42,880 nt of DNA, from positions 1-42,880 of the forward strand of contig JAFTQX010000058.1 in NCBI GenBank assembly GCA_017462545.1, given 5' to 3'. The notes below the pieces were generated by a model. The model worked only from the letters and a program-made list of their open reading frames with translations, had not been told where the DNA came from and searched no databases. Positions 2,082-42,880 of the stretch are shown in pieces; position 1 is the first letter of the stretch; every line of letters starts with the position of its first letter. The DNA comes from Clostridia bacterium. Lineage in GTDB: Bacteria > Bacillota > Clostridia > Oscillospirales > CAG-272. The translations under genes and the position numbers were made by a program.

Positions 2082-5006
2082 ATGAACACTTCCTCTCCCG
2101 TTGAAGCCATCGCCGCCGCGCCCGCAAAGCGCGATCGCTCTTATCTGATATGGACCTTTCTGATCCCCTTTTCCTTCATGCTGCTGGTCTACGCCATAGA
2201 CAAGGTTTTTCCCTTTGGTGACAAGACCGTGCTGGTGCTGGATCTCAACGCTCAATACATCGGTTTTTTTGAGGCGTTGCGCGACTTCGTATATGGAGAC
2301 GCCTCGCTGCTGTACTCCTTTGCGCGCACGCTTGGCGGTGAAATGATGGGCATTTACGCCTATTATCTGGCCAGCCCGCTTTCGTATATTGTGGCCCTGT
2401 TTCCGGCCACCTACATCACCGAGGCACTCTTGACCATGTTCGTCTTAAAGGCAGGGCTTTGCGGCCTGACCTTTGGCATTTACCTGCACAGCCACAAGCA
2501 TGCCGCACCGATTGAGACGATCATGTTCTCTACGCTGTATGCGCTCTGCTCGTACGCGCTTGTCATGCAGCACAATACGATGTGGATCGACAATCTGATC
2601 CTTTTGCCGCTGGTCACACTGGGGGTAGAATCGGTGGTCAAATATCGCCGTTATCGGCTGTTTGTTGCCTCACTTGCACTTGCGCTGCTTTCCAACTTCT
2701 ACATCGGCTTCATGACCTGCATTTACGTGCTGCTCTACTTTTTCTGCTACTTTTATGCCTATTCGTCCGATGGGCGAAACAACCCGCTGCATGAGAAAAA
2801 CCACTACGCGCGCTCCTTCCTGCGCATGGCGGTCTATGCGGCCCTCTCGGTTGCCATTGCGGCCATCATTCTGCTGACGGTGGTCTACTCGCTTTCCTTC
2901 GGCAAGACCTCCTTTACCGATCCGAGCTATATCCCCTACCTGCAATTCAACCCGCTTCAGTTCTTTGCCAAGCTGCTGCCCGGCGTTTATGACACGGTAG
3001 CCCCCGAGGGCTTTCCCATCGTCTTCTGCGGTGTCATCACCCTGCTGCTGGTGCCGCTGTATTTCTTAAACCGCCGTTTTCCCCGCGCGGAGCGCATCTC
3101 CTTTGGTGTATTGCTTGGCGTCTTTTATGTCTCGATGTCGATCAACTCGCTGGATATGCTTTGGCACGGCGGACAGGCCCCCAACTGGCTGAACTTCCGC
3201 TACAGTTTCATGGTATGCTTTCTGCTTTTGGTGCTGGCATCCCGTGCCTTTGCGCGGTTGAGCGATGTGACGACCAGAACCATTCTTTCCGTAGCAGTCG
3301 TCCTCTTTGCGCTGATTGCCCTGACCGCGGCAATGAATTACGAATTTTTCACCACCACCGATGCCGCCTTGGCGGCCACGCTGCTGCTTGCCTTTACCGC
3401 GCTGCTGGTCGGTCTGCGCAAATATCGCGGCAAGGCGCGGCAGTATCTGGCCATGCTGATGCTGTGCGTTGTTTTGGCAGAGGTGCTGTACAACGGGATC
3501 ACGCAGATCACGGCTTTGCATGCCGATGTTGGCATGACCGAGCGTGAGGAATACCGCTCCTACCACGAAACAATGGGTGCTATGATCGACAAAATCAAGG
3601 AAGAGGACGGGGGCTTTTACCGTACCGAGACCCTTTCTCACCGCGTGGTCAATGATGTCATGGAGCTTGGCTATCGCGGCGTGACCAACTCCACCTCGAC
3701 GCTGAATGCCAAGACCATTGATTTCCTGCACCGTCTCGGCCTGCTTTCCACCTCCCATTGGTCGGAATATTTCGGCAGCACGCTGGCGCTGGATTCCCTG
3801 CTCGGCATCCGCTATGTGGTTCTTCCGAATGATGTATGGCTCAACGACATATATGAGGAATGTCTGACAAGCGATCAATATACGGCCTACCGTAACCCCT
3901 ACGCCCTGCCCATCGCCTTTTCCGCTGCCACCAACATACGCGATATGGATATGGCGCTGCGCTCCTCCCCGCTCCTGCGCCAGAATGCAATCATCCGCGC
4001 GCTGCTTGGGGGCGAGGCAAACGATTGCTATGTACCGCTTGCCTCTGACTTCACCTGTGAAAACGCCCTTGCCGAGGTGCTCGAATGGAATGGTGACGAA
4101 TATCATGCCATCTACTCGGATGTCTACCTTGAAAACGAGGCAGCCATTGACAAGGGAGAGATCTTGACCGACGACCTGCACGCGCCCAACACCGCCATCA
4201 CCTTTACCACCACGGTGCCGCAGGACGGGTTCTTGTATTTTTATATTGAAACAGCCCTGCAGAACAAGCTGGATATGTATCTGAACGGACAATATTACGG
4301 CGTGCTGTTCGGCAGCGGCGATGATTTTGTCAAGGGACTTGGCAGCTTTACAGCCGGCACAGAGGTCACCGTGACGCTGAAGATGGAGGAGTGCTGCTAC
4401 TTCTATTTCCCCACCGATACCATTGCCTTTTATATGGAGGAGACAGAGGAAACCCTCCAAAATCTAACCGCGCTGGGTGAAAACGGGCTGGTGCTCACCG
4501 AGTTTGACGAGGACTATTTCCTTGGCAGCATCACCACCACCGCCGAGCGACCGATTGTGCAGACCACCATTCCCTACGATGCCGGTTGGATAGTAACAGT
4601 AGACGGTGTGCGCGTACAGACCTACGAAACGCTGAACGCGCTGCTTGCTTTTGACACCACACCGGGTGAGCATACGGTAGAAATGATCTACCGCCCCACC
4701 TGCTATGTGGTTGGCAAAATCGTATCCATTGCCGGGGTAGTCATCTTCCTTGCCTTGATCGTCATCGAGGAGCTTTGGCGTCGCCGTGTGCTGAAGCCGG
4801 CGAGCGGCAGCGTGATCTACCGTCTGCTTGATACCTTGTTTTACGCAGAGCGCGTAGAGGAGGAGCCCAACTACCTCTCGGACGAGGAAATGCAAAAGGC
4901 AGAGGATGCCCGTCGTCCAAGGCCGTCTGCCGAGGAGGAAGAGGAAGGAACAGAAGAAGCCGCAAGCACCTCTGAAGAGAGGGAGGAAAACGGCCATGGC
5001 GGATAA
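2082..5006 (+). CDS. yfhO: YfhO family multi-pass membrane protein
   Basis: 974 residues with the YfhO layout. A short cytoplasmic start (about 20 residues) precedes the first membrane segment. Next comes the family's extracytoplasmic motif region (LDLNAQYIGFFEAL near residue 53), then a dozen or so hydrophobic segments to about residue 460. A large soluble extracytoplasmic domain follows to about residue 880, then one last membrane helix and a cytoplasmic tail. YfhO proteins resemble GT-C glycosyltransferases; in Bacillus subtilis YfhO is needed for glycosylation of lipoteichoic acid. The substrate here is not visible. The tail after residue 935 is unusually acidic, with runs of Glu. The gene heads an operon and its last 11 bases overlap the next gene. 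AAGGAG seven bases upstream supports the start. Confidence 0.85.
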   Translation: MNTSSPVEAIAAAPAKRDRSYLIWTFLIPFSFMLLVYAIDKVFPFGDKTVLVLDLNAQYIGFFEALRDFVYGDASLLYSFARTLGGEMMGIYAYYLASPLSYIVALFPATYITEALLTMFVLKAGLCGLTFGIYLHSHKHAAPIETIMFSTLYALCSYALVMQHNTMWIDNLILLPLVTLGVESVVKYRRYRLFVASLALALLSNFYIGFMTCIYVLLYFFCYFYAYSSDGRNNPLHEKNHYARSFLRMAVYAALSVAIAAIILLTVVYSLSFGKTSFTDPSYIPYLQFNPLQFFAKLLPGVYDTVAPEGFPIVFCGVITLLLVPLYFLNRRFPRAERISFGVLLGVFYVSMSINSLDMLWHGGQAPNWLNFRYSFMVCFLLLVLASRAFARLSDVTTRTILSVAVVLFALIALTAAMNYEFFTTTDAALAATLLLAFTALLVGLRKYRGKARQYLAMLMLCVVLAEVLYNGITQITALHADVGMTEREEYRSYHETMGAMIDKIKEEDGGFYRTETLSHRVVNDVMELGYRGVTNSTSTLNAKTIDFLHRLGLLSTSHWSEYFGSTLALDSLLGIRYVVLPNDVWLNDIYEECLTSDQYTAYRNPYALPIAFSAATNIRDMDMALRSSPLLRQNAIIRALLGGEANDCYVPLASDFTCENALAEVLEWNGDEYHAIYSDVYLENEAAIDKGEILTDDLHAPNTAITFTTTVPQDGFLYFYIETALQNKLDMYLNGQYYGVLFGSGDDFVKGLGSFTAGTEVTVTLKMEECCYFYFPTDTIAFYMEETEETLQNLTALGENGLVLTEFDEDYFLGSITTTAERPIVQTTIPYDAGWIVTVDGVRVQTYETLNALLAFDTTPGEHTVEMIYRPTCYVVGKIVSIAGVVIFLALIVIEELWRRRVLKPASGSVIYRLLDTLFYAERVEEEPNYLSDEEMQKAEDARRPRPSAEEEEEGTEEAASTSEEREENGHGG

Positions 5007-5217
5007 GATCCTGCGCCTGTTCCCGGGTGACCGACTGGAAATGAAAAAGCCGCACCCCTGCGGCGGGCGGTGCTTTACCGTACTGCGCGCCGGTAGCGAT
5101 GTGCGCGTGCTGTGTGACGGCTGCGGCAGAGACATGGTGCTTGATCGGCTGAAGCTGGAAAAGGCCGTCAAGCGCAAGCTGTCCGACACAAACAACGAAA
5201 ATGAAAGGGAGAATTGA
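4996..5217 (+). CDS. DUF951 family small protein
   Basis: 73 residues from an ATG that overlaps the end of yfhO. Conserved features are the start DKILRLFPGDRLEMKKPHPCG, a Cys-Gly pair, and a second Cys pair around CDGCGRDMVLDR. These match the small DUF951 family of Firmicutes, often found beside ruvA, yfhO or S6-type genes. The family's function is unknown. The Cys pairs could bind a metal. A longer frame opens at 4906 but lies inside yfhO in another frame, so the internal ATG at 4996 is preferred. Its stop is three bases before the ruvA start, consistent with translational coupling. Confidence 0.8.
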   Translation: MADKILRLFPGDRLEMKKPHPCGGRCFTVLRAGSDVRVLCDGCGRDMVLDRLKLEKAVKRKLSDTNNENEREN

Positions 5218-5220
5218 CCG

Positions 5221-5835
5221 ATGTTTTATCACATTGCGGGAAAATTTGTCCACAAGGAAGAAAGCTTTGCCGTGCTTGACTGCTCCGGTGTCGGCTACCG
5301 TCTGACGATCAGCATGAACACATCTGACGCGCTTGGCTATGCGGACGGCGAGAGAACGGTAAAGCTATACACCTACCTGCAGGTACGGGAGGACGACATC
5401 GAGCTATTCGGCTTTTACACCGAGGACGAGCTGGCCGCGTTTCGCCTGCTGATCTCGGCCTCGGGGGTGGGGCCGAAGGCGGCCATGGCCATTCTCTCTC
5501 TCTTGACCCCGGAAAAGCTGGCGCTTGCGGTGGCAAGCGAGGACATCAAGGCCATTTCACGCGCCAACGGCGTGGGTGCCAAAACGGCAGCGCGCGTGGT
5601 GCTGGAGCTGAAGGACAAGTTTAAGGGCATCTCGGCACCGAGCAGCGCGACGAGCCTGTCGAGCACCGGCACGGCCGCCGCACCGAGCGGCGGCAAGCTG
5701 GGAGAGGCGCTTGAGGCCTTGACTGTGCTTGGCTATGGGCGCGCCGAGGTGACCGAGGCACTGCGCAAGCTGGATACAGCCTCGCTCTCGGTAGAGCAGA
5801 TCATCACCGCCGCGCTGAAATATTTTGCAAAGTGA
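5221..5835 (+). CDS. ruvA: Holliday junction branch migration protein RuvA
   Basis: 204 residues, normal RuvA length. The N-terminal OB-fold (1-65) is followed by the helix-hairpin-helix DNA-binding region (ISASGVGPKAAMAIL and ANGVGAKTAARVVLELKDK), a Ser/Thr/Ala/Gly-rich flexible linker (about 142-158), and the small C-terminal domain that contacts RuvB. RuvA tetramers hold the Holliday junction flat while RuvB drives branch migration. GGGAG lies ten bases before the ATG. ruvB starts nine bases after the stop. Confidence 0.97.
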   Translation: MFYHIAGKFVHKEESFAVLDCSGVGYRLTISMNTSDALGYADGERTVKLYTYLQVREDDIELFGFYTEDELAAFRLLISASGVGPKAAMAILSLLTPEKLALAVASEDIKAISRANGVGAKTAARVVLELKDKFKGISAPSSATSLSSTGTAAAPSGGKLGEALEALTVLGYGRAEVTEALRKLDTASLSVEQIITAALKYFAK

Positions 5836-5844
5836 GGGTAGGAT

Positions 5845-6924
5845 ATGCCGAACGAGCTGGAAGAATTTGATTTTGAGAACCGCATTGTCTCTACCGAATC
5901 ACTCCCGGATGACAGAGAGGGAGAGCCTTCCCTGCGCCCGCGCACGCTTGACGAATACACAGGGCAAGCCAAGGCAAAGGAAAACCTGCGCATCTACATT
6001 GATTCGGCCAAGCTGCGCGGCGAAGCGCTTGACCACGTTTTGCTCTATGGCCCTCCCGGTCTTGGCAAAACAACGCTTTCTGCCATCATCGCCAACGAGA
6101 TGGGCGTAAATCTGCGCACCACCTCCGGCCCTGCGATCGAAAAGCCCGGGGATCTGGCCGCCATTCTGACCAATTTGGCACCGGGGGATGTGCTGTTTAT
6201 TGACGAGATCCACCGTCTTTCCCGCCAGGTAGAGGAGATCCTCTATCCCGCGATGGAGGATTTTGCGATCGACATTATCATCGGCAAGGGGCCGAGCGCG
6301 CGGAGCATTCGTCTGCCGATACCGAAATTCACGCTGATCGGTGCGACCACACGCGCCGGGCAGCTCTCTACCCCGTTGCGTGACCGTTTTGGTGTCATTC
6401 AACGGCTGGAGCTGTACACAACCGAGGAGCTGACGGGCATCGTCAAGCGTTCGGCATCGATTCTCAACATGGATATTGCCGAGGATGGCGCGCGCGAGAT
6501 CGCCTCTCGCTCACGCGGGACGCCGCGAATTGCCAACCGTCTGCTCAAGCGGGTGCGTGACTTCGCCCTTGTGAAGGGGGATGGCTGCATTGACGGCGAG
6601 ATCGCCCGAGCAGGACTGCGCCTTTTGGAAATTGATGAGCTGGGGCTTGACAACACCGACCGCCGCATGCTGGAGGCCATTATCAAATTTTACGGTGGCG
6701 GCCCTGTGGGGCTTGAGACGCTGGCGGCTACCATTGGCGAAGAGGCCATCACCATTGAGGATGTGTATGAGCCGTATCTGCTGCAGATCGGCTTCCTCAG
6801 TCGCACACCGCGCGGTCGCTGCGCCACGGTGCAGGCCTACAATCACCTGGGGCTTCCCTACACCTCTGTTTCCCCGATGGGAAGCGCCAAGCAGCCGGAT
6901 CTGTTTGATGGAGAAGACGCGTAA
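5845..6924 (+). CDS. ruvB: Holliday junction ATP-dependent helicase RuvB
   Basis: 359 residues. The AAA+ core has Walker A GPPGLGKT (69-76), Walker B LFIDEIHR, sensor 1 IGATTRAG, and the arginine-finger region LRDRFG. A C-terminal winged helix follows, with RTPRGR near the end, where it contacts junction DNA. RuvB hexamers pump DNA through the RuvA-bound junction, using ATP. The extra C-terminal tail ([13 protein letters not shown]) is common in Firmicutes. GAGGGTAGG before the ATG supports the start. No strong terminator separates it from the rpmG promoter; see 6950-7015. Confidence 0.97.
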
Positions 6925-28424: not shown

Positions 28425-30032
28425 TTACCATTCGGAACGATAGCGTGCCATCACGGCCTCGGCCGTGTGGATTCCATCCAGGGCGGCGGAGGTAATACCG
28501 CCGGCATAGCCGGCCCCCTCGCCGCAGGGGTAAAGATTATCCAGTGTTAAAGAAACACGCGCCTCATTACGCAGGATACGCAAGGGGGCGGAGGTTCGTG
28601 TTTCCGGCCCGGTCAAAACCGCGTCACGCACGGTATAGCCGGCAATACGCCTCTCAAACAGAGGCAAGGAATAGCGCAAAGAGCGCACAACAAATTCGGG
28701 CAGGTATTCATCAGGCAATGCAGGGCGCACGCCGCCGTTCATATAGCTCGGCGCGATGCGACCGTTGATCTCACCGGCCTGCTTGCCCTCCATAAAATCA
28801 CCAAGCAGACACGCGGGGGCACTATAATCGCCGCCACCCGCCCGATAGGCTGCTTGTTCGATCCTTTGCTGGAAGGCGATCGCCGCCTCCGGCGTGTTGC
28901 CGTAATCCTCACGATTGACCGAGACGGCCACTGCGGCATTGGCATTTTTGCCATCCCGCGCGTGAGCGCTCATCCCGTTCACCACAACGCCATGCGTCTC
29001 GCTGGTCGCGGCAACGACCTCGCCGCCCGGACACATACAGAAGGTATAAACACCGCGTTCGCCTGTGCGATCGGACAACGTATATTCTGCGTGACCAAGG
29101 GCAGGATGCCCCGCAAAGCGACCGTACATGGCACGGTCAATATCCTCCTGCAAATGCTCGATGCGCACACCGACCGAAAAGGGCTTTGCCTCTATGGCGA
29201 TATTGTGCGAGAGCAGCATGCGATAGGTATCCCGCGCGCTGTGACCTATGGCAAGAATCAACGCGCCGCAAGGAATCTCGCCGTCCTCCGTTACCACGGC
29301 CGACACGCGACCACTCGACAAGCGCAAATCCCGCACGCAGGTATGGTAGCGCACCTCACCACCAAGCTCCTCAATGCGGGCAAGCATACGAAAGACAAGG
29401 GTACGAAGAATATCCGTACCAATGTGCGGCTTGGCCAGCATGGTGATCTCGGCAGGGGCACCAAAGGCAACAAATTGAGAGAGGACATAGTTGTTCAGCG
29501 GATCGCTGACACGCGTTACCAGCTTACCATCCGAAAAAGTACCCGCCCCACCTGCGCCAAATTGGATATTGGTCTCTTCATCCAGCACACGTGTCTTGGA
29601 AAAGGCAGAAACGGCATTCACGCGGTCATTGACATCACCACCGCGTTCCAGCACCAAGGGACAATACCCCTGCTCGGCAAGCAACAGGGCGGCAAAGAGA
29701 CCGGCAGGGCCTGTCCCTACCACAACAGGGCGTGCAGTAAGCGTCTCGCTGCCGTGCACGCATAGGGGTGCGCCTTCTGCCAAAGGCGAGAGCCCCGCGC
29801 GGGCAAGCCGCGCAGCCGACTGAACAGAAAAATCGCCGCTGGCAGCAACGGAATACACAAAGCGAATGTCCTCCCGCTTGCGCGCATCCACCGAGCGGCG
29901 ATAAATATGATATCGGATCGTCTCCGAGGCGGCTCCTAACCGCTTAAGCTGCCGCGCAGCGGCGGCAAGTGCCTCCTCCGGCGGTGCCGTGATCGGCAAA
30001 TTGATTGATGGGATGAGATATGTGAGTGCCAT
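28425..30032 (-). CDS. FAD-dependent oxidoreductase (COG2509-like)
   Basis: 535 residues. An N-terminal domain of about 85 residues precedes the FAD-binding Rossmann motif VVVGTGPAGLFAALLLAEQG. Further conserved pieces are NIQFGAGGAGTFSDGKLVTR and, near the C-terminus, YPCGEGAGYAGGITSAALDGI, which closes the FAD site. This is the set of uncharacterised FAD-dependent dehydrogenases often found next to cdaA-ybbR-glmM in Clostridia. The substrate is unknown. It begins one base after the ybbR stop. glmM, often next in this cluster, is missing here. Confidence 0.88.
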   Translation of the reverse strand: MALTYLIPSINLPITAPPEEALAAAARQLKRLGAASETIRYHIYRRSVDARKREDIRFVYSVAASGDFSVQSAARLARAGLSPLAEGAPLCVHGSETLTARPVVVGTGPAGLFAALLLAEQGYCPLVLERGGDVNDRVNAVSAFSKTRVLDEETNIQFGAGGAGTFSDGKLVTRVSDPLNNYVLSQFVAFGAPAEITMLAKPHIGTDILRTLVFRMLARIEELGGEVRYHTCVRDLRLSSGRVSAVVTEDGEIPCGALILAIGHSARDTYRMLLSHNIAIEAKPFSVGVRIEHLQEDIDRAMYGRFAGHPALGHAEYTLSDRTGERGVYTFCMCPGGEVVAATSETHGVVVNGMSAHARDGKNANAAVAVSVNREDYGNTPEAAIAFQQRIEQAAYRAGGGDYSAPACLLGDFMEGKQAGEINGRIAPSYMNGGVRPALPDEYLPEFVVRSLRYSLPLFERRIAGYTVRDAVLTGPETRTSAPLRILRNEARVSLTLDNLYPCGEGAGYAGGITSAALDGIHTAEAVMARYRSEW

Positions 30033-40366: not shown

Positions 40367-40405
40367 AAAAGAACCGCGAAGGATTTTTCCTTCGCGGTTC
40401 TTTTT
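40367..40405 (-). terminator. Terminator after the redox fusion gene
   Basis: On the minus strand, AAAGAACCGCGAAGGA (40388-40403 in complement) pairs with the matching 16-base arm at 40368-40383 around a four-base loop, with flanking A and T runs. The stop codon of the fusion gene sits at the stem's edge. Confidence 0.92.
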
Positions 40406-41882
40406 ATCGCTGCCCCTCAATCAGAGCGGCCAGCGTCTCGTAGGAAACCTTGCCCTCGTAGCGAGCCAACACAAAGCCGTCCCCATCCAGCACGATGGTC
40501 ATAGGATAGGTATCCTTACCACCAAGCAGCGTATAGCAGGTATCCTCCTTTGTATCCTGCCCAAAGAGCATGACACTGTTCGGATAATAGGCATCAATAT
40601 ACGCAGGGGCTTGCGCGGCATCCAACGCGCTGTGAATGGCAAGCACTGTCACCTCATCGGCATAATCGGCGGCGATGGCGGCAAACGCAGGCAGCTCCTC
40701 CTTACAGGGGGCGCACCACACGCCCCAGAAATTGATAATGGTCACACGTCCGCGATGCGCGGAAAGCGTGTAGCTTTCTTCTCCCGCGCCGTAGAGCGGA
40801 ACGGTCAGGTCATAGCAAAGATCGCCTACTGTGCTGCCGTGCACGCCATCACTTGGCGTGTTGGGCAGACTTTGATCAAGGAAATTGTAATAGACAAGTG
40901 CAAAAATCAGTACAGCCGCCAGCAAAACGCTGATGACGATGCGCAAGCACTTACCGCGCTTCACCGATTTTGCAGGAGCAGTCCCCTCCTCCACCTCGTT
41001 CGGCGGCAAAATGAGACGGTTTCCCTTGCGGGTGATCGCTTTTGTAGGGCACACGGCAGCGCACTCGCCACATTGGATGCACTCGTGGTCACCCACGCGG
41101 CGCACATCCATGCCGCAGTAGCCGGTGCAAAGACCGCAATCAATGCACCTCTCTTCCTCCACCTTCATGCCAAGCAGGCAAAAACGGTTGAAAAGACCGT
41201 AGATCGCGCCAAGCGGACAGAAAAAGCGGCAGAAAAACCGATAAACAAAGACAGAGCCTACAAGAAAGACGACCAGCAGCACGAATTTCCAAGTAAAGAG
41301 TGGCCCAAGCATGCGGAACATATCCGAATTGCCGACATAAGACAGAAGACTGACTGCCCCCTCCAGTGTGCCGGCAGGGCAAACGTATTTACAAAAGGCG
41401 GGCAGCGTACCGTCCTTCAGCATATATAGGATGGGATAGGCCACCACAAGAAGAGCCAGCAGCACATATTTGAAATACGAAAGCAGGCGCGTAAAGCGAT
41501 TTTTCTTCAGCTTGGGCGTTTTGATCTTATGCAGCAGCTCCTGCAGCAGCCCAAACGGACAGAGAAACGAGCAAATGGCGCGGCCAAACAGCAAGCCGTA
41601 CAGCAGAAGAATGCCAAAAATGTAGTACGGCACGCGCGCCCCACTCGCGGCAAGAGAATTTTGCAAAGCGCCAAGCGGACAGGCGGTGGTAGCACCGGGG
41701 CAGGAATAGCAGTTTAACCCGGGTGCGCAAAGTGCCTTAGAAGGACCCTTATAGAGACGACCGGTGGCAAAGCCCTTGAGGTTGGCGTTAAACAGCAGCG
41801 CGGCATAGAGCTGAATCAAACGGCGCTTGCTGGGTCTGTGGGCGGCAAGCCACTGCCGCATATGTGAAAGCATCTTCTTCAT
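40404..41882 (-). CDS. Iron-sulfur membrane protein fused to thioredoxin
   Basis: 492 residues. The first about 235 form a NapH/CcoG-like membrane part with four cysteines at 52, 58, 61 and 68 and three CXXXCP motifs (104-109, 164-169 and 218-223). Two 4Fe-4S ferredoxin motifs follow (246-256 and 268-279). A further membrane helix (about 313-334) leads to a C-terminal TlpA/ResA-type thioredoxin domain with the active site WCAPC (389-393). Established NapH topology puts the ferredoxin part in the cytoplasm and this thioredoxin outside. The likely role is to move electrons across the membrane to reduce outside thiols; this is inference. The ATG at 41882 follows the partner gene's stop almost directly. 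Confidence 0.88.
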   Translation of the reverse strand: MKKMLSHMRQWLAAHRPSKRRLIQLYAALLFNANLKGFATGRLYKGPSKALCAPGLNCYSCPGATTACPLGALQNSLAASGARVPYYIFGILLLYGLLFGRAICSFLCPFGLLQELLHKIKTPKLKKNRFTRLLSYFKYVLLALLVVAYPILYMLKDGTLPAFCKYVCPAGTLEGAVSLLSYVGNSDMFRMLGPLFTWKFVLLVVFLVGSVFVYRFFCRFFCPLGAIYGLFNRFCLLGMKVEEERCIDCGLCTGYCGMDVRRVGDHECIQCGECAAVCPTKAITRKGNRLILPPNEVEEGTAPAKSVKRGKCLRIVISVLLAAVLIFALVYYNFLDQSLPNTPSDGVHGSTVGDLCYDLTVPLYGAGEESYTLSAHRGRVTIINFWGVWCAPCKEELPAFAAIAADYADEVTVLAIHSALDAAQAPAYIDAYYPNSVMLFGQDTKEDTCYTLLGGKDTYPMTIVLDGDGFVLARYEGKVSYETLAALIEGQR

Positions 41883-41883
41883 A

Positions 41884-42300
41884 TCAGCCAAGACCTATAC
41901 ATTCGGTGCAGATGCGGACGGCCTTTTCCATCACATCCCGCATACTACCATTGAACACTCCCAAAACAATCATGCAGAGAGCCGCAACCAACACCGTCGC
42001 GTGAAGCACACGCTCCTTGCGCGGGGACATGTGTGGTTCTTTCGTCGGCTTGCTGCCGCGAGCAATACCTGTTTTTTTACGGCAAAGGATTGCGGTGGCG
42101 AGCGCAACGATGGCGGTCAATCCGATTGGCAATGCAAGGTAACCAAGCGCGGCAACCACACGCTCTCGTGTGTAGGGGGCATCACCCGATAGCCCAATGC
42201 GGACACAGAAAACGATCAACAGGAGTCCGCACAAGAGAATCAAGGCAGTAAGCATCCAGGAGAACAAACGACAGGTACGATCAAGCGATTCTTTTTTCAA
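41884..42300 (-). CDS. CXXC membrane protein, partner of the redox fusion
   Basis: 138 residues from a TTG with AAAGGAG seven bases upstream. Three membrane helices (about 12-34, 50-72 and 100-118) are followed by a short end VRICTECIGLG with a CXXC pair (131-134). The last 40 residues resemble the small CD1871A-type CXXC proteins of Clostridia that are found beside 4Fe-4S and thioredoxin genes. Here that part appears fused to two extra helices. The CXXC pair probably exchanges electrons with the neighbouring thioredoxin or iron-sulfur protein. The function is not established. It has its own promoter and ends one base before the next gene. Confidence 0.72.
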   Translation of the reverse strand: MKKESLDRTCRLFSWMLTALILLCGLLLIVFCVRIGLSGDAPYTRERVVAALGYLALPIGLTAIVALATAILCRKKTGIARGSKPTKEPHMSPRKERVLHATVLVAALCMIVLGVFNGSMRDVMEKAVRICTECIGLG

Positions 42301-42819: not shown

Positions 42820-42880
42820 CGAATCCCTCTCTCAGCGCCATCAAAAAGAGCATCCGATTTTTCGGATGCATTTTTTGATA
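42820..42880 (+). repeat. Direct repeat copy B: degenerate tRNA-Ser tail plus terminator
   Basis: A second copy of the tRNA 3' end and terminator, 191 bases after copy A. The upstream part of the tRNA is not recognisable, so this is a pseudo-tRNA tail rather than a gene. The copy runs to the window edge and may extend beyond. Confidence 0.85.

Follow-up and report, generated by a model that had tools for sequence, protein, structure and literature searches.

The window analysed here, a 42,880-nt stretch that forms a complete contig (C30) of a 2.0-Mb Clostridia genome (G000; 78 contigs, 81.3% complete), carries two overlapping minus-strand genes, one for a 138-residue membrane protein of the CD1871A family (positions 41884–42300), the other for a 495-residue NapH-like membrane iron–sulfur protein fused to a thioredoxin domain (40404–41891). 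We consider it likely that the two products form a membrane complex through which cytoplasmic electrons reach an extracellular thioredoxin. The pair is the fused form of a clostridial module whose unfused version is already in print as uncharacterized; the fused form and a set of additional cysteines on the predicted outer face add to that account. The longer gene has TTG as its listed start, with an ATG at codon 4, and this start overlaps the stop of the shorter gene, an arrangement that would fit translational coupling.

Results

Domains and motifs of the fusion protein

A sequence-only reading of the window had listed in the 495-residue chain three CXXXCP motifs, two ferredoxin motifs, a further membrane helix and a WCAPC site. 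All of these are present, and the list has to be extended by a fourth motif of the membrane domain, CAPGLNCYSCPGATTACP, which that reading omitted. The NapH-like membrane domain (approximately residues 20–240; 41172–41834, on the minus strand like all features of the pair) contains four predicted membrane helices, as indicated by the Fer4_5 match (PF12801, 61.6 bits), an AlphaFold2 model, the alignment with Escherichia coli NapH and the charge bias of the loops. Its four cysteine motifs are CAPGLNCYSCPGATTACP in an outer loop (C55, C61, C64 and C71; 41676–41729), inner CSFLCP (residues 107–112 with C107 and C111; 41556–41573), outer CKYVCP (residues 167–172 with C167 and C171; 41376–41393) and inner CRFFCP (residues 221–226 with C221 and C225; 41214–41231), the placement of each following from the predicted topology. 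Two CxxCxxCxxxC motifs (C249–C259 and C271–C281; 41046–41147) make up a dicluster ferredoxin (Fer4, PF00037, 37.5 bits, above cut-off) that is predicted to be cytoplasmic, and a fifth membrane helix (approximately residues 315–338; 40878–40949; hydropathy 2.88, AlphaFold2 helix 307–338) is predicted to carry the thioredoxin domain outside.

The C-terminal domain (approximately residues 355–485; 40437–40829) exceeds the cut-offs of three Pfam models, AhpC-TSA (PF00578, 39.5 bits), Redoxin (PF08534, 33.3 bits) and Thioredoxin (PF00085, 26.9 bits), which together with Fer4_5 and Fer4 are the Pfam matches of the protein over cut-off. The best 50 of 1220 Foldseek matches of the fusion model (mean pLDDT 83.6, pTM 0.78, built from 68 aligned fusions) are all thioredoxin-type, including DsbE, ResA and TlpA (best E 8e-9), so that the membrane domain has no counterpart of known structure among them; likewise, the best 60 of 131 solved structures found by sequence have their best-aligned stretch in the ferredoxin region (from profile position 213 onward), and none of them spans the membrane domain. 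With the three Pfam models, the Foldseek matches and a CxxC in the thioredoxin region of 80 of 80 fused relatives, the domain is a thioredoxin-fold redoxin domain with CXXC, of the TlpA/ResA/DsbE type. At the level of NCBIfam, the protein stays below the cut-offs for TlpA (47.9 bits against 230), ResA (46.8 against 170) and DsbE (37 against 123.15), and its best match, NapH/MauN (TIGR02163), reaches 74.1 bits against a cut-off of 213.05; one unfused relative scores 59.6 bits with the latter model.

Some fusions are more elaborate. Tandem thioredoxin domains occur in at least 6 of 71 fusions (L053, L061, L074, L076, L090 and L103), and at least 17 of the 80 fusion loci contain an additional thioredoxin-type open reading frame (ORF) (e.g. 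L064:1155–3095 and L074:2007–3500), both counts being lower bounds from a survey in which a non-overlap rule retained 71 of the 80 fusions. These arrangements fit a reducing hub. By eye, most of the additional ORFs have signal-like N-termini, and some are long with unassigned regions.

Conservation of the cysteines

All 149 homologues compared, 83 of them fused and 66 unfused (window excluded), contain the full set of 18 membrane and ferredoxin cysteines; they were selected as rows with a domain E value below 1e-60 and at least about 230 residues after removal of duplicates. A broken homologue, a NapH-type gene in two pieces that adjoins a CD1871A gene (L126:367–1272), was left out. E. coli NapH (from strain MG1655) aligns along the chain and has the four inner and eight ferredoxin cysteines, twelve in all, but lacks the outer six (C55, C61, C64, C71, C167 and C171). 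The 80 fusion loci were found by patterns containing C55/C61 or C167/C171, which biases the conservation of those residues there. The unfused homologues come from CD1871A searches, except L183, and thus 65 of the 66 are without this pattern bias and provide a fair test of conservation. Both cysteines of the CAPC active site (C393 and C396 within WCAPC 392–396; 40704–40715) are invariant in the 68-row fusion alignment, which combines the window protein with 67 of the 80 fused loci, long, tandem or cut sequences having been omitted. Judged from these alignments, the cysteine pattern is more than chance, because the 18 cysteines recur in all 149 homologues and the CxxC in all 80 fused relatives.

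The CD1871A partner

The 138-residue protein scores 44.8 bits over residues 102–138 with the NCBIfam model CD1871A_fam (NF040920), above its cut-off of 32. Hydropathy predicts three membrane helices (residues 17–33, 57–73 and 98–114) followed by a C-terminal helix, and AlphaFold2 places helices at 2–37, 45–77, 93–116 and 120–134 (mean pLDDT 81.6), the last of which includes a CTEC motif (C131–C134; 41899–41910) predicted to lie on the outer face, four residues before the end of the chain (ICTECIGLG). The three-helix protein ending in CTEC that had been read from the letters alone is therefore a CD1871A member. C131, E133, C134, G136 and G138 are invariant in 13 and in 32 aligned CD1871A proteins, the larger set consisting of 31 of 79 such proteins plus that of the window.

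Of 152 loci inspected, 146 encode a protein with the motif C-x-[EQ]-C-x-G-x-G, and in 144 of these the chain terminates exactly with it. The six loci without it comprise a cut gene (L044), a variant with CKAC (L052), a gene with TGA in the motif (L135), one frameshifted copy (L153 and L163) and a match below cut-off (L154). A cytochrome b561 identity was also considered for the 138-residue protein; the match is weak (E 0.011, below cut-off) and was taken as chance. In another genome (G451), a CD1871A-like segment extends over two frames beside a NapH-type gene (L170, ~5001–5984), and may represent a decayed copy, an error or a natural join.

Linkage and distribution

A pattern scan of species genomes gave at least 594 matches, 590 of them encoding a relative; the best 80 were retained, and all are fusions. 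By record name, these loci belong to metagenome-assembled genomes or uncultured isolates, many of them from gut or rumen. In 79 of the 80, the gene immediately preceding the fusion on its strand is a CD1871A gene; the sole miss (L044) has 64 bases before the match on its contig. One fusion (L105) is on a contig labelled Fretibacterium, while the labels of the others are mostly clostridial; transfer or misbinning is possible there.

Within the order, CD1871A occurs at 13 places in 12 of 147 genomes, and NapH-type matches with E < 1e-100 occur at 13 places in the same 12 genomes; up to 16 initial NapH-type candidates were scored per genome, and the next-best match in the order (5e-35) is partial and from another genome. 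At 12 of the 13 CD1871A places (11 of 12 outside the window, plus the window itself), NapH-type and thioredoxin-type parts adjoin. At the remaining one (G009), CD1871A stands alone within 11.9 kb, and the genome keeps a NapH-type gene with adjoining thioredoxin on a separate contig. In the class, CD1871A is found at 49 places in 47 of 293 genomes, and in the 30 loci examined a NapH-type gene adjoins in all 30 and a thioredoxin-type ORF in 24, within at most 3.1 kb. Over 70 loci from the order, the class and one family (L153 and L163 being one place), CD1871A was counted in 68, the NapH-type gene in 68 and a thioredoxin-type part in 60 within the stretch examined; one locus is fused. Thus, when co-occurrence is checked as had been suggested for the fusion and CD1871A-like proteins, the two go together almost without exception. 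One locus (L020:4927–10248) also has a cytosolic-type TrxA, a lipoprotein-like thioredoxin and two further NapH-like ORFs nearby.

Membrane topology

Averaged over 68 fusions, the net charge is +5.6 for the N-terminus, +1.8, +5.0 and +0.2 for loops L1, L2 and L3, +4.9 for the ferredoxin loop and −17.4 for the thioredoxin domain. This alternation predicts an inner N-terminus, an inner ferredoxin and an outer thioredoxin; CSFLCP and CRFFCP would then face inward, CAPGLNCYSCPGATTACP and CKYVCP outward. The fused thioredoxin is thus predicted to be located outside the cell, as proposed earlier, and the bias speaks against the cytoplasmic placement that would have contradicted that proposal. The first helix of the fusion is weak and does not appear among the hydropathy segments above 1.5, so that the helix count depends partly on the AlphaFold2 model and the NapH alignment. 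For 64 CD1871A sequences, the mean charge is 2.23 before the last helix versus 0.03 after it, the former being larger in 50 of the 64, which suggests that CxEC is probably on the outer face.

Among the unfused thioredoxin-type ORFs, 54 of 58 carry a lipobox-like signal (by a simple rule applied to uncurated starts, three partial ORFs of 61 being skipped), and most unfused thioredoxin partners accordingly look like lipoproteins. Visual inspection shows a hydrophobic segment at the N-terminus of three of the four without the signal; the fourth is a TrxA of the cytosolic type.

Fused and unfused forms

In a tree of 150 NapH-type domains, built by a quick method, a single branch (SH-aLRT 99) separates 84 fused from 66 unfused sequences, the simplest reading of which is that the fusion arose once. 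The unfused locus of the order nearest to the window (L024, 54% identity in the NapH part) has a thioredoxin ORF with an N-terminal hydrophobic segment that overlaps or abuts the NapH-type gene, an arrangement that may plausibly represent the step before fusion. The CD1871A partners differ as well: with uncurated starts in both sets, fusion-linked ORFs have a median length of 259 residues, with three to six hydrophobic segments in 73 of 81, whereas unfused-linked ORFs have a median of 48 residues, with one such segment in 53 of 65.

A selenocysteine candidate

In one genome (G228), the CD1871A gene (L135:1480–1614; G228:C17, ~29424–29534) reads KAVRV-TGA-LECIGIG-stop, with TGA at the first cysteine position of CxEC. 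It adjoins an intact NapH-type gene with all cysteine motifs, and SelB is matched in this genome with 385.5 bits against a cut-off of 242.25. A second TGA case was not found in the genus, which holds one genome; nor was a thioredoxin-type ORF found within 15.5 kb of the locus. If selenocysteine is really encoded there, the first CxEC position would be redox-active. The accessible part of a selenoproteome review (PMC13188914) yielded no entry for CD1871A.

CcdA/DsbD relatives

The presence of CcdA/DsbD was judged by PF02683 alone. Neither window protein matches this family up to E 0.1, and no match occurs in their own genome, which is 81.3% complete; all four fused-type genomes identified (G000, G020, G306 and G338) are without it. 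PF02683 is found in 150 of 293 genomes of the class and has no match in the other 143, and its association with CD1871A is negative (one-sided Fisher p = 0.001, kinship ignored). In the order, it occurs in 59 of 147 genomes and in 2 of the 12 with CD1871A. Among nine genomes of the window's own family, two have CD1871A without PF02683, two have the reverse and five have neither.

Neighbouring genes

Further downstream of the pair, the minus strand encodes a PnuC-like transporter, a BNR-repeat protein and an RpiR-type regulator, with no evident link to it. Beyond the pair, no other gene family is shared by over 12 of the 80 fusion loci. The largest groups, of 12 loci each, are a large upstream ORF on the opposite strand (e.g. 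L050:1–3083), represented by a subtilase that has PA and Fn3-like domains, and two clusters of ORFs antisense to the gene pair itself. A tRNA-Ser(CGA) lies close to the contig end (42561–42880), and by eye its end and an adjoining hairpin-like stretch seem to be partly repeated near 42820–42880.

Discussion

From the features of the two proteins and their relatives, we infer a route for electrons, including the iron–sulfur clusters themselves, the donor, the direction of flow, the part of CD1871A and the substrates. Reduced cytoplasmic ferredoxin would donate to the fusion's own two [4Fe-4S] ferredoxin clusters, which would pass electrons to a cluster bound by the inner CX3CP pair (C107, C111, C221 and C225). 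From this inner cluster they would reach the outer face, where the six further conserved cysteines and the CxEC of CD1871A may serve as an outer cluster, a reducible disulfide or both. The outer site would then reduce the CXXC of the tethered TlpA-type domain, and through it extracytoplasmic disulfides; in most unfused relatives, this last carrier would be a separate lipoprotein-like thioredoxin, here joined to the complex through one extra membrane helix. In its most specific form, the proposal describes an unrecognized class of trans-membrane disulfide reductases, in which an iron–sulfur wire leads to an outer [4Fe-4S] cluster beside a reducible disulfide, resembling a membrane-spanning ferredoxin:thioredoxin reductase (FTR), and CD1871A, an obligate subunit acting through a thiol (perhaps a selenol in one genome), passes electrons to extracytoplasmic thioredoxins. 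We consider this specific form about as likely as not.

Several observations weigh against the proposed electron route. In the model of the fusion, residues 56–69, including C61 and C64, have pLDDT below 50, and a clustering of the outer cysteines is not visible. The NapH-type search model was derived from CD1871A-linked genes. The module is patchy: of the 147 genomes sampled from the order 12 have it, and of the 9 from the window's family in that sample 2. For the selenocysteine candidate, the small hairpin after the TGA, a possible SECIS element, is no stronger than in shuffled sequences (z −0.34), the TGA form is single among 91 distinct CD1871A rows, and a scan for the UxEC pattern in 398 genomes of the phylum, few of those listed belonging to the class, found none; we give selenocysteine in this protein about one chance in two. 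As for CcdA/DsbD, the order-level association is not significant (p = 0.07 for the 2 of 12) and that across genera, where 14 of 35 with CD1871A have PF02683, is weak (one-sided p = 0.040), kinship being ignored in both; 14 of the 47 CD1871A genomes of the class also have PF02683, and 110 of the 293 have neither, which implies that lacking both is tolerated. The exclusion is thus a tendency, not a rule, and the suggestion that the pair does the job of CcdA/DsbD is moderately supported, by the absence of PF02683 from the four fused-type genomes and the negative association in the class, against the co-occurrence in those 14 genomes.

A possible though less probable alternative keeps the same complex but makes CxEC a structural ligand, its two cysteines completing an iron–sulfur cluster with the lone outer CX3CP (C167 and C171) and no thiol relay taking place. 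The inner CX3CP motifs are paired and the outer one is single, within the order CD1871A and the NapH-type protein match one for one, and nearly all CD1871A chains that bear the motif stop directly behind it, all of which would suit a ligand-donating subunit; the candidate selenocysteine at the first position, on the other hand, favours redox catalysis over ligation. The CKAC variant keeps both cysteines and is compatible with either role.

We find it rather improbable that electrons flow the other way, in an oxidase or a branch of respiration, with extracytoplasmic thiols as the donor or else menaquinol, which has been proposed for NapH. NapH belongs to a quinol-oxidizing system, NapH/MauN leads the NCBIfam matches and both proteins have the inner motifs, but the score is far under its cut-off, the TlpA/ResA/DsbE class is reducing where studied, and thermodynamically a low-potential ferredoxin favours outward flow. 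Still less probable is a peroxidase fed by the iron–sulfur part in extracytoplasmic defence against peroxide or oxygen: AhpC-TSA does give the domain its best Pfam score, yet the CxxC is kept in every fused relative and the best 50 structural matches are thioredoxin-type, many of them DsbE, ResA or TlpA. That ordinary redox genes without shared function became neighbours by chance is hardly credible given the adjacency in 79 of 80 loci, the identical distribution over the order and the invariant motifs.

The preferred reading, outward electron transfer to a thioredoxin, has relatives among known systems. CcdA and DsbD move thiol reducing power outward to TlpA/ResA-type thioredoxins; the window pair would do the same job with iron–sulfur domains and without PF02683. 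FTR is a soluble enzyme that uses electrons from ferredoxin, by way of a [4Fe-4S] cluster, to reduce a disulfide; the idea is the same, whereas the fusion is a membrane protein with its thioredoxin predicted outside, and the window proteins have no match to the FTR catalytic-subunit family in 18 Pfam families or in the best 25 of 41 NCBIfam families. With NapH/MauN, represented by E. coli NapH, the fusion has the inner CX3CP pair and the dicluster ferredoxin in common; NapH lacks both the six outer cysteines and the thioredoxin, and the fusion has both. Within the CD1871A family, to which the partner belongs by score, fusion-linked members are longer than unfused-linked ones.

The closest account is a 2025 bioRxiv preprint (PMC12637426) that reports an operon of a 4Fe-4S protein, a CxxC protein and a TlpA disulfide reductase in six species of the class Clostridia and one of the phylum Firmicutes, terms it previously uncharacterized, suggests electron transfer for redox homeostasis and, in its discussion, reduction of extracellular or cell-surface targets, and links the abundance of the 4Fe-4S protein to immunotherapy adverse events. 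By description, these are the same three components as in the window pair, where two of them are fused. There they are described as separate proteins, and the parts of the preprint available to us do not mention a fusion, the extra outer cysteines, CcdA/DsbD or selenocysteine. The literature searched did not contain the name CD1871A, and no account of the operon beyond this preprint appeared among the matches listed, one of which, PMC10434189, contains both gene-product names. The view of the pair as a candidate for an undescribed system is therefore to be narrowed, since the unfused three-gene operon is in print as uncharacterized (PMC12637426), to the fusion, the outer cysteines and the candidate selenocysteine form of CD1871A, as far as the accessible text of that preprint goes.

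Clear targets for mutation are the CxEC tail and the outer cysteines, which are invariant. A testable mechanism would be useful, with CD1871A marking the module in 47 of 293 genomes of the class and the abundance of the unfused operon's 4Fe-4S protein tied to side effects of immunotherapy (PMC12637426). If the proposal is true, some Clostridia would have an iron–sulfur reductase in place of CcdA/DsbD or alongside it, and the fused lineage would hold the entire relay in two proteins. To our knowledge, how anaerobes without CcdA/DsbD keep their outside thiols reduced is an open question. Ferredoxin is the central low-potential carrier of such anaerobes, and if the model holds, it would directly feed the cell surface.

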